Source of the DNA: Candidatus Zhuqueibacterota bacterium
GTDB lineage: Bacteria > SM23-31
Reading direction: 5' to 3'
NCBI GenBank assembly: GCA_022562855.1
Contig: JADFON010000108.1
Coordinates: 1-6,557, forward strand
DNA: 6,557 bases
The position numbers and the translations under genes are program-made. Positions 732 through 4,961 of the stretch are shown piece after piece. Every line of letters begins with the position of its first letter. Positions within the stretch are counted from its first letter, which is position 1. The notes under the pieces were generated by a model, which saw nothing but the letters and a program-made list of their open reading frames with translations, was not told where the DNA came from and did no database searches.

Positions 732-755
732 ATTGTACGTACAAATACGTACAAT
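732..755 (+). promoter_or_regulatory. Operator-like double palindrome before ogt
   Basis: The site is a perfect inverted repeat: arm ATTGTACGTA (732-741), 4-bp spacer, arm TACGTACAAT (746-755). It also reads as two direct repeats of TACGTACAA (736-744 and 746-754) exactly 10 bp apart, one helical turn, and the left half is part of a perfect 12-bp palindrome, TTGTACGTACAA. Short palindromic boxes in tandem on one DNA face are the usual targets of ribbon-helix-helix regulators such as MetJ, Arc and CopG. The downstream protein starts with exactly such a domain. The site ends 9 bp before the chosen ATG (765) and contains TACAAT (750-755), a possible -10 box, so bound protein would block transcription. 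A further half-site, CGTACAAT, occurs at 919-926 inside the gene. Binding and self-regulation are inferred. Confidence 0.7.
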
Positions 756-764
756 ACTCTGCTT

Positions 765-1478
765 ATGGAAAATACAAGGTTATATATTCGCATATCAAAA
801 AACCTCAAACAGGATTTGACAAATTACTGTGAAGAGCATGGCGGTAAGATGTCGACTGTTATCAAGCTCTCATTACGGCAATTTCTGAAGAAAAATACCG
901 GTAATCAAATAAAAAACTCGTACAATCTAAAGGACGAACGTATGGAAAACGATCAAAGTACGACTATCCATTATTCCTCTTTTCAATCCCCCATGGGAAA
1001 AATGCACATCGGGGTTACCGAAAAGGGGCTGTGCTGCATTGCCATGTCCGATTCGTCATGGCACGCCTTTCTGGAGGAATCCGGCAAGCGAACAGAAATC
1101 AAACTTTCTGAATCCGACAGCCGTACCGATGAAACAAAGCAAAAACTCAAGCGATATTTCGAAGGAAAAATCAAACTATTTGATATACCTGTCGATCTTT
1201 TTGCAATGACCTCATTTGAGAAAAAAGTCCTGACTTCCACAAAGAAGATACAATTCGGGAATTTGAAGTCGTACCAGGAAATCGCGGAATCTATCGGATC
1301 GCCAAAAGCGTCAAGAGCGGTTGGAAACGCCCTTGGAAAGAACCCTATACCGATCGTGATACCTTGCCACAGGGTGATAAAGACCGATGGTACTATCGGC
1401 GGCTTTTCAAGCGGTCTGGACAAAAAAAGGTTTCTCTTGAAACTTGAAAACATACATGATCCCAATCTGTTAAATTAA
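765..1478 (+). CDS. ogt: Ribbon-helix-helix / O6-alkylguanine-DNA alkyltransferase fusion
   Basis: Repair enzyme that moves the alkyl group from O6-alkylguanine in DNA to its own cysteine (suicide reaction, cytoplasm). The 237-residue protein has two parts. Residues 4-43 form a ribbon-helix-helix domain: beta strand LYIRI (6-10), helix, HGGK turn (25-28), second helix to LKK. Residues about 67-230 are the alkyltransferase, with active-site PCHRV (Cys201). Against human MGMT (Tyr114, Arg128, Asn137, Cys145, Glu172) the equivalents keep identical spacing: Tyr170, Arg184 (finger), Asn193, Cys201, Glu228, so it should be active. Typical bacterial Ogt is about 150-180 residues; the extra length is the DNA-binding domain. 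Start: ATG 765 is chosen because it follows the operator and begins the domain directly. ATG 723 would add 14 unrelated residues and place the operator inside the gene. Neither has a Shine-Dalgarno sequence. The gene is lysine-rich. It is followed by a hairpin, so it is probably transcribed alone. Confidence 0.93.
   Translation: MENTRLYIRISKNLKQDLTNYCEEHGGKMSTVIKLSLRQFLKKNTGNQIKNSYNLKDERMENDQSTTIHYSSFQSPMGKMHIGVTEKGLCCIAMSDSSWHAFLEESGKRTEIKLSESDSRTDETKQKLKRYFEGKIKLFDIPVDLFAMTSFEKKVLTSTKKIQFGNLKSYQEIAESIGSPKASRAVGNALGKNPIPIVIPCHRVIKTDGTIGGFSSGLDKKRFLLKLENIHDPNLLN
929..944 (+). promoter_or_regulatory. Internal ribosome binding site and ATG before the alkyltransferase domain
   Basis: AAAGGA (929-934) stands 7 nt before an in-frame ATG (942-944). 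Initiation here would give a 178-residue protein, MENDQSTTIHYSSF onward, which is exactly a normal-length stand-alone alkyltransferase without the ribbon-helix-helix part. This is a better ribosome site than that of either upstream start. It may allow a second, repair-only product, or be a relic of two formerly separate genes. Inferred from sequence only. Confidence 0.4.
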
Positions 1479-1500
1479 GTTTTGCCGCTTAGAAGTTAGT

Positions 1501-1530
1501 GAGCTGAAACGGTGTTTCAGCTTGATTTTG
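1501..1530 (+). terminator. Hairpin after ogt, possible terminator
   Basis: A perfect 9-bp stem, AGCTGAAAC (1502-1510) with GTTTCAGCT (1514-1522), closes a 3-nt loop (GGT). It lies 23 bp after the ogt stop codon. The downstream tract is T-rich but interrupted (TTGATTTTG), so intrinsic termination may be partial. It separates ogt from the lipoprotein gene. Confidence 0.55.
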
Positions 1531-3329: not shown

Positions 3330-4595
3330 ATGCTTGCTTACAAAAACGGTTCCATTTACTGGGGTAACGTAGATTTGTCATTGCCGGCGCAAAAGTGGGG
3401 CACCCCCTTTTATGTTTACAACCGTTCAACGCTTGAGGAGTCGTTTACACTATTACAATCCCGCTTAAGACCGGAGGTCAATACGATTTGTTACGCATTG
3501 AAAGCCAACTCCAATCCACACCTGGTCGGTTGTCTTGCCGGTCTTGGCGCCGGCGCCGACATTGTATCGATGGGGGAACTGATCGCCGCCAGGAAGGCAA
3601 AAATCCCCGCAGGGAAGATCGTTTTTAGCGGAGCGGGGAAATCGGATGAGGAGTTACGATTTGCCCTGAAAGAAGGGGTAGGAGCAATAAATGTTGAATC
3701 TAAACAGGAACTTGACGCTATTGAACGGATATCTGCCGATTTAAAGACAAAAGCCCCCGTAATGCTCCGCGTAAACCCCGATATCGACCCCCAAAGCCAT
3801 CCGCTTATATCTACGGGAAAGAACTATCATAAATTCGGTATTTCCCTGGATTCCATTCCTGAATTTGCCACCCGTTGTAAAAAATCAGGTCGAATCGAAT
3901 TTCTCGGTCTCCATGTGCATATCGGTTCCCAGATTTCCCGTTTTGAATCTATCGACAATACGTTCAAAGTGATATCGAACCTTGTTAAATCTATCGAAAA
4001 GCAGGGTATTCCCATTCGGAATATCAACATTGGAGGAGGACTTCCCGTTGATTATGAATCTGCGGGAAAATCACTCCTGTCCGGTGGCTGCACCGGTATG
4101 GATACCGGATTAGAAAAGGCAACAGGCTATTGGAAAACGTGCATCAAAAAACACTTCGACTGCACAAAAATAAGCATAGTAATCGAGCCGGGCAGGTCAA
4201 TAATTGCCCATTCCGGGATCCTGTTAACACGAGTTATTTACCGTAAGCGCAATAACAAAAAGGAGTTTCTTATCGTTGACGCAGGAATGAACGATTTTAT
4301 CAGACCTGCATTGTACGGTGAAACCCATAGCATTGTACCTCTAAAAGAACCGGGAAATTTGAAAACAACTATCGATATTGCCGGACCGTTGTGTGAAACA
4401 GGGGATGTTTTCGCCAGGGACATTTCGTTTCCGGAATCCGATAAAGGGGATGTTTTAGCAATCCTGTCTACAGGGGCATATGGATTTGTATTGTCGTCTA
4501 ACTATAATTTACGTCTCCGCCCCCCGGAACTGCTTATCGACAACGGAGAGGTTGCCTGCATCCGTGAAAGGGAGAGCTATGATGACATAATCTGA
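3330..4595 (+). CDS. lysA: Diaminopimelate decarboxylase
   Basis: PLP enzyme that decarboxylates meso-diaminopimelate to L-lysine, the last step of lysine synthesis, in the cytoplasm. The 421 residues match the family's usual length (about 410-420). Visible signatures of the fold III decarboxylases: YALKAN with PLP-binding Lys58, HVHIGS (195-200), GGG (235-237) for the phosphate, EPGRS (286-290), and CETGD (355-359) with the catalytic Cys355 contributed across the dimer, then GAYG (382-385). The C-terminus IRERESYDDII corresponds to the usual RRRETYEDLI end. After the GGG motif the segment at 243-265 (AGKSLLSGGCTGMDTG and flanks) looks longer than usual for the family. ATG 3330 follows the lipoprotein stop by 5 bp; no Shine-Dalgarno sequence is seen, so translation may rely on coupling. 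Functionally paired with dapF, from which it is separated by a repeat element. Arginine or ornithine decarboxylases are unlikely given the CETGD motif and context. Confidence 0.96.
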   Translation: MLAYKNGSIYWGNVDLSLPAQKWGTPFYVYNRSTLEESFTLLQSRLRPEVNTICYALKANSNPHLVGCLAGLGAGADIVSMGELIAARKAKIPAGKIVFSGAGKSDEELRFALKEGVGAINVESKQELDAIERISADLKTKAPVMLRVNPDIDPQSHPLISTGKNYHKFGISLDSIPEFATRCKKSGRIEFLGLHVHIGSQISRFESIDNTFKVISNLVKSIEKQGIPIRNINIGGGLPVDYESAGKSLLSGGCTGMDTGLEKATGYWKTCIKKHFDCTKISIVIEPGRSIIAHSGILLTRVIYRKRNNKKEFLIVDAGMNDFIRPALYGETHSIVPLKEPGNLKTTIDIAGPLCETGDVFARDISFPESDKGDVLAILSTGAYGFVLSSNYNLRLRPPELLIDNGEVACIRERESYDDII

Positions 4596-4678: not shown

Positions 4679-4707
4679 ACATAGCAGATAGAGTAGCGCC
4701 CCAGGTG

Positions 4708-4758
4708 CTCATCGAGGTGTTCTTTGGCGTAGCCGCCACTACGCGGCACCTCGATGAG
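4708..4758. repeat. Long two-stage hairpin inside the MITE-like element
   Basis: CTCATCGAGGTG (4708-4719) pairs perfectly with CACCTCGATGAG (4747-4758). Within the loop, GCGTAG (4727-4732) pairs with CTACGC (4739-4744), giving a stacked two-stem structure. It is too far from the lysA stop, and has no T-run, to be a simple terminator. Confidence 0.7.
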
Positions 4759-4807
4759 TATTCTGACGAAGGTGAGTGTTGCATAATTCCAAAATAAGTC
4801 CAACAAG

Positions 4808-4877
4808 CTGTAGGCGGGGTCGTCCCTGACCCCGCTCTTAGCACAAATGTTCGGGTCAGGGACGACCCGAACTACAG
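4808..4877. repeat. Inverted pair of GGGTCGTCCCTGACCC repeats
   Basis: The 16-mer GGGTCGTCCCTGACCC at 4817-4832 is present as its exact reverse complement at 4853-4868. Flanking CTGTAG (4808-4813) and CTACAG (4872-4877) extend the pairing to 28-base arms with 22 matches. Each 16-mer is itself partly symmetrical (GGGTC...GACCC), so either cruciform or two smaller hairpins could form. Confidence 0.75.
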
Positions 4878-4889
4878 ACTTCTGTAGTT
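4870..4889. repeat. Hairpin overlapping the right arm of the 16-mer repeat
   Basis: AACTACAGA (4870-4878) and TCTGTAGTT (4881-4889) are perfect 9-base reverse complements separated by two bases. Its left half is shared with the arm of the preceding inverted repeat, so the two structures are mutually exclusive. Confidence 0.6.
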
Positions 4890-4900
4890 GTGCAACAATC

Positions 4901-4923
4901 ACGAAGGTGAAGAACACCTTCGT
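4901..4923. repeat. Hairpin near the right end of the MITE-like element
   Basis: ACGAAGGTG (4901-4909) pairs perfectly with CACCTTCGT (4915-4923) around a 5-nt loop. The sequence CGAAGGTGA also occurs once more at 4767-4775 in direct orientation. No T-run follows, so this is not a typical terminator. Confidence 0.65.
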
Positions 4924-4961
4924 AAGCACACAAAATATATCAAAAGTTGTTTAACGCAGCA

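Follow-up and report, generated by a model that had tools for sequence, protein, structure and literature searches.

A putative antitoxin-type ribbon-helix-helix domain and operator-like palindrome joined to an O6-alkylguanine-DNA alkyltransferase gene in a Candidatus Zhuqueibacterota bacterium

The window analysed here, a stretch of 6,557 nucleotides from a metagenome-assembled genome of a Candidatus Zhuqueibacterota bacterium, carries an intact open reading frame on the forward strand (765–1478) whose product has 237 amino acids. The features of this gene and its flanks, with the evidence for each, are as follows.

732–755, no strand assigned: operator-like palindrome ATTGTACGTA-CAAA-TACGTACAAT (10-bp perfect arms, likeness to relO and to the site of the genome's own relB)
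750–755, forward strand: TACAAT, a possible −10 element within the operator (proposed by eye)
765–896, forward strand: ribbon-helix-helix (RHH) domain of RelB/DinJ type, residues 1–44 (profiles, AlphaFold, structural neighbours)
897–941, forward strand: linker, residues 45–59, in part homologous to an orthologue's untranslated leader (alignment with L002)
929–934, forward strand: Shine-Dalgarno-like AAAGGA, 7 nt before ATG 942 (predicted pairing)
942–944, forward strand: Met60, at which the ancestral unfused alkyltransferase gene started; possible second start (the orthologue's start, L002:1519, aligns)
966–1199, forward strand: N-terminal ribonuclease-like domain of the alkyltransferase, PF02870, residues 68–145 (Pfam)
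1215–1451, forward strand: DNA-binding/catalytic domain of the alkyltransferase, PF01035, residues 151–229 (Pfam, alignment, Foldseek)
1365–1367, forward strand: codon of Cys201, the alkyl acceptor of the PCHR motif (invariant in the alignment)
1500–1524, forward strand: terminator-like hairpin 3′ of the gene (weak evidence; chance alone would give 1.2 in the region)

Further along the window, lysA (3330–4595) starts 5 bp after the stop codon of an Ig-like gene and has no Shine-Dalgarno sequence, which suggests translational coupling. Between lysA and dapF lie a 25-bp inverted repeat (88%) with a 20-bp loop (4808–4877) and two longer-range imperfect inverted repeats (4705–4931); none of these repeats had a match in Rfam.

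The larger part of the protein (residues 66–231) is a complete O6-alkylguanine-DNA alkyltransferase (MGMT) with all catalytic residues present, as the first-pass annotation had claimed. A Pfam scan of the protein returned PF01035 (E 9.7e-31; 105.9 bits against a cut-off of 27) and PF02870 (E 1.4e-9; 38.8 bits against a cut-off of 21), and TIGR00589 (ogt) matched at E 2.5e-31. Tyr170, Arg184, Asn193, Cys201, His202, Arg203 and Glu228 do not vary across an alignment of 27 diverse sequences, and the catalytic spacings (14/9/8/27) equal those of human MGMT, in which we take the equivalent residues to be Tyr114, Arg128, Asn137, Cys145 and Glu172. The AlphaFold model of this part has a pLDDT of at least 94 across nearly all of residues 71–230, and Foldseek matched it to Ogt/Ada/MGMT structures (M. 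tuberculosis, archaeal, human and Ada; E down to 4e-14). By its domains and catalytic residues, this part is an Ogt/MGMT protein and is predicted to transfer alkyl groups. It resembles the M. tuberculosis and human Ogt/MGMT proteins in fold and catalytic residues but differs in that those proteins have no attached DNA-binding regulator domain. The genome (2.5 Mb in 491 contigs, 80% complete) gave no second MGMT match.

In residues 1–44 the protein appears to carry a RelB/DinJ-type antitoxin's DNA-binding half but not its toxin-binding half. When the 59-residue N-terminal segment was searched alone, residues 1–44 matched positions 1–44 of TIGR02384 (RelB_DinJ) at E 6.9e-5; the score of 23 is below the curated cut-off of 45.65 bits, and that of the Pfam RelB match (E 0.0026) is likewise below its cut-off (18.1 against 22.4 bits), as is expected where the DNA-binding half alone is present. 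Against a profile built in house from 29 RelB/DinJ proteins, hhalign aligned residues 1–44 at E 3.9e-7 (probability 93%), and HMMER scored the segment at 23.9 bits, compared with 10.7 for the best shuffle (0 of 5,000 shuffles reached the segment score). In the AlphaFold model, the N-terminal segment is extended and helices follow at 12–24 and 29–45 (the ribbon itself would need a dimer), and the Foldseek/VIA neighbours of this part were mostly RHH domains (DinJ, PutA, Arc, CopASO and RelB), with scores that are weak to modest but consistent (best Z 4.8). The first-pass annotation had placed an RHH domain at residues 4–43; profile search and structure prediction both bear out the domain, the RelB match moves its boundaries to 1–44, and the generic CopG/Arc-type label then given would more precisely read as a RelB/DinJ antitoxin half. 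The RelB match stops at residue 44, just short of the conserved GxPF region, which in RelB is part of the toxin-binding half, and MGMT follows; from GxPF onward, the C-terminal half of RelB/DinJ is absent from the protein. No RelE/YafQ toxin gene adjoins 765–1478, the next gene encoding a Big_5 Ig-like protein, and the Pfam scan of the protein gave no match to HTH_18, HTH_AraC or Ada_Zn_binding.

The palindrome at 732–755, a site already singled out in the first-pass annotation, holds up as a structured element. It reads ATTGTACGTACAAATACGTACAAT in full and contains a perfect 22-bp palindrome (TTGTACGTACAAATACGTACAA, 733–754) that ends 10 bp before ATG 765 and is built of a core, TTGTACGTACAA (733–744), and a partial second copy of it (745–754). 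Perfect arms of 10 bp were equalled by 2 of 2,000 shuffles of this upstream DNA. In E. coli, RelB recognises relO by its hexads, and the perfect half-site is TTGTAATTACAA (PMC2812701); the 12-bp core is identical to this half-site at 10 of 12 positions, and only the two central bases differ. Besides the fusion, the search of the same genome turned up a single genuine RelB/DinJ gene, with a RelE/YafQ-type toxin gene next to it, and its upstream site, TTGTATGTACATTGTATTACAA, shares the frame TTGTA-N12-TACAA with the site at the fusion and ends 12 bp before the relB ATG (against 10 bp at the fusion). Six 22-bp sites with this frame occur in the 2.5-Mb genome, two of which precede the fusion and this relB. 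With distance from the ATG held equal, the two upstream regions match to a degree reached by 20 of 2,000 shuffles; released from that restriction on position, the match is not significant (278 of 2,000). Upstream of 30 RelB/DinJ genes, TTGTA/TACAA half-sites numbered 18 against 7.2 expected, and none of 1,000 shuffles reached 18. The relO-like site and the RelB-type domain fit each other as an antitoxin-type repressor/operator pair, and on this comparison the palindrome is probably the operator of the RHH domain of the fusion and of antitoxin origin.

The two exact occurrences of TTGTAYGTACAW in the genome were not taken as proof, since by our estimate base composition alone predicts about two and the pattern had been fitted to both sites. 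A wider regulon was likewise rejected: operator sites with one mismatch are as many in this genome as those of a control pattern, and most are intragenic or have no convincing gene behind them. The genuine relB/dinJ–yafQ pair (L140, G000:C307, 163–720), which has a relO-like operator, has a toxin frame that opens with a TTG overlapping the antitoxin stop codon. A promoter scan at the operator site of the fusion found none. If TACAAT at 750–755 were used, we conjecture that the site would cover the promoter and that the transcript would be nearly leaderless, which would explain why ATG 765, unlike the starts of most other genes examined, has no Shine-Dalgarno sequence before it.

Our survey of other MGMT loci comprised 386 genomes (an MGMT match was present in 327), the best 80 loci on GTDB contigs, 25 viral loci and plasmid and phage hits. 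Among 177 distinct MGMT loci, in each of which the 600 nt preceding the MGMT domain were examined in any frame of that strand, RelB-like sequence was present in the window only. When 52 N-terminal segments, that of the window among them, were scanned against Pfam, 22 had an AraC-type helix-turn-helix and RelB was matched by that of the window alone. Neither genome contigs nor viral contigs held close relatives of the full fusion; the RHH domain alone had no match in viral contigs, and its hits in plasmids and phages were at chance level or to distant RHH proteins, such as those of Sulfolobus viruses. Several candidates were rejected. The long N-terminal extensions of other MGMT proteins are Ada/AraC or mostly GC-rich open frames; among plasmid hits with alignments that extend to residues 25–38, H19 and H34 are annotated as unfused, H21 is a long frame of Ada type, and the unannotated H20 has no RelB-like frame. 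The first-pass annotation had named absence of this region from all homologues as grounds for refutation, and the homologues examined do all lack it; the domain nevertheless stands on its own family match and on the operator, and the fusion becomes a recent singleton. A different regulator fusion is used elsewhere in the family: L033 (G002:C119), in a genome of the same family, encodes an MGMT joined to an AraC-type regulator and lacking the Ada zinc domain, a layout like that of Cada2 of Caulobacter.

A further comparison came from an orthologue in the same family (G001/L002), which encodes an MGMT that is 49% identical, starts exactly at the codon of Met60 and has no RHH domain. Its upstream neighbour is an unrelated enzyme gene, and downstream lies the same Ig-like (Big_5) gene as in the window. 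Around Met60 the two loci have homologous DNA (AAAGGA, 7 nt, ATG), but AAAGGA is the ribosome-binding site in the orthologue and lies inside linker codons in the window. From the homology of the leader and the retained AAAGGA, the linker appears to derive in part from a former untranslated leader; the start of the orthologue at Met60, the Shine-Dalgarno sequence in the linker and the single RelB-bearing locus together indicate a fusion that is recent and so far unique. Upstream of the operator lies a dispersed repeat (490–620); G000:C435:11827-11950 carries a copy of it (91%, 124 bp), and five further places have shorter or weaker pieces. The dispersed repeat falls within a 302-bp stretch between two copies of a perfect 16-bp direct repeat (AATTAATTTGACTTTG, 381–396 and 699–714). 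The direct repeats may mark a past insertion or serve as a promoter element, and the dispersed repeat between them suggests a rearrangement at the locus. The locus thus keeps traces of the fusion event, with an old Shine-Dalgarno sequence in a new linker and an unfused orthologue in the same family.

These traces also feed the main rival explanation, which we consider somewhat unlikely: that a truncated relB-like fragment and its operator are an inert antitoxin remnant, open and in frame before an ordinary MGMT, so that the working protein would be a short MGMT from Met60 and the RHH domain would be made little or never and have no role. The predicted Shine-Dalgarno pairing is −5.3 kcal/mol at Met60, −7.5 kcal/mol at the corresponding codon of the orthologue and +0.6 kcal/mol at ATG 765, although −5 kcal/mol is reached at 16% of random positions, and codon statistics for 765–941 are uninformative on translation. 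On this pattern, translation may also start at Met60 and give a short MGMT, and the upstream codons (765–941) may be little translated. The remnant explanation further accords with the start of the orthologue and its homologous leader, with the presence of the RHH domain in no other MGMT examined, and with the rearrangement indicated by the upstream repeats. Against it, all 59 codons are open with the RHH pattern intact, and the palindrome is perfect, with no decay.

The best explanation of the locus as a whole, to which we assign a probability of about 45%, is that the fusion is an autorepressor consumed by repair, such that damage derepresses its own gene. RHH dimers, probably an adjacent pair, would bind the palindrome at 732–755 and repress the gene; repair would alkylate Cys201 and use up the suicide enzyme; damage would thus draw the protein off the operator, through engagement at lesions and the loss of used molecules, and synthesis would be restored with no need for an allosteric switch. 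RelB autorepresses through its RHH domain (PMC2812701), and alkylated OGTs unfold or are degraded, repair then depending on new synthesis (PMC5751216). A direct alkylation switch is also conceivable, by analogy with the PCHR cysteine of Cada2. Autorepression by the fusion is plausible; we infer damage sensing, as we do translation from 765, operator binding, repression and release on alkylation. In favour of the autorepressor consumed by repair are the RelB-type RHH domain, the complete MGMT, the adjoining palindrome and the site at the genome's own relB, together with the precedents of RelB, PutA, Cada2 and the OGTs. Against it are the lack of a Shine-Dalgarno sequence at 765, the occurrence in one metagenome-assembled genome only, the sub-cut-off RHH scores, codon statistics that are silent on 765–941, the negative promoter scan and the absence of any sign in the sequence that alkylation alters DNA binding.

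Fusions of a regulator to MGMT are a known kind, and the analogy with E. coli Ada drawn in the first-pass annotation proved apt, although Cada2 and PutA are closer precedents. Ada likewise combines a DNA-binding regulator with MGMT in one self-regulating protein, but has a zinc/Cys38 domain and an AraC helix-turn-helix in place of a single RHH domain, the fusion having no Ada/AraC domain. Ada activates after methylation of Cys38, and the well-studied regulator–MGMT fusions (Ada and Cada2) have AraC-type helix-turn-helix parts and are activators. In Caulobacter Cada2, methylation of the PCHR cysteine in the MGMT domain switches the fused regulator, and the DNA-binding part is N-terminal and MGMT C-terminal, as in the fusion (PMC10957082); Cada2 differs in its B-box and RLHD helix-turn-helix domains and in activating, whereas the fusion has a repressor-type RHH domain. 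Trifunctional PutA has an N-terminal RHH domain fused to an enzyme and is an autogenous repressor of its own operon (PMC5293562). The fusion shares this arrangement, and in arrangement only, with an operator-like site before its own gene, but PutA is a proline-oxidising flavoenzyme with sensing chemistry unrelated to MGMT. With RelB/DinJ (E. coli relBE and the pair at G000:C307), the fusion shares the RHH domain and a TTGTA/TACAA operator just before the gene, but it has MGMT instead of the toxin-binding C-terminus and no toxin gene. An RHH domain fused to an O6-alkylguanine or methylguanine alkyltransferase was not found in the papers searched, and the combination of an antitoxin RHH domain, its probable operator and a proposed repressor logic is a singleton in the data and papers searched.

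Three further explanations are improbable to differing degrees. The fusion could be a plain homeostatic autorepressor that represses its own gene as RelB does, the RHH domain merely capping the protein level and alkylation having no special effect at the operator. The domain and operator evidence is the same as for the autorepressor consumed by repair, but consumption of the suicide enzyme would couple protein level to damage anyway, so that homeostasis alone, which we regard as improbable, works only if the spent protein remains stable and bound, in contrast to known OGTs (PMC5751216). There is a slim chance that the RHH domain is a tether that dimerises the enzyme or holds it on DNA for a faster search for lesions, the palindrome being left over from the antitoxin gene. 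RHH domains are obligate dimers and bind DNA, in keeping with such a role. MGMT, moreover, is known to bind DNA cooperatively (PMC5751216), but the perfect operator-like palindrome that still adjoins the gene is a better fit to regulation. An assembly artefact, in which two fragments were misjoined within the open reading frame, is very improbable: the assembly is fragmented and 80% complete and the fusion is a singleton, but the DNA on both sides of Met60, the Shine-Dalgarno sequence of the linker included, is homologous to the leader of the orthologue, so that no join lies at the domain border, and the downstream gene order agrees with G001.

More specifically, the autorepressor consumed by repair would be a one-component alkylation sensor that arose by capture of an antitoxin DNA-binding half and its operator in front of MGMT, a proposal that we hold to be doubtful in this full form. 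A repressor-type fusion would have a different control logic from that of the activators, namely derepression through consumption of a suicide enzyme. If the proposal is true, repair would consume the repressor, damage would switch on new repair enzyme independently of Ada, and an operator module of a toxin–antitoxin system would have been recycled to control DNA repair.
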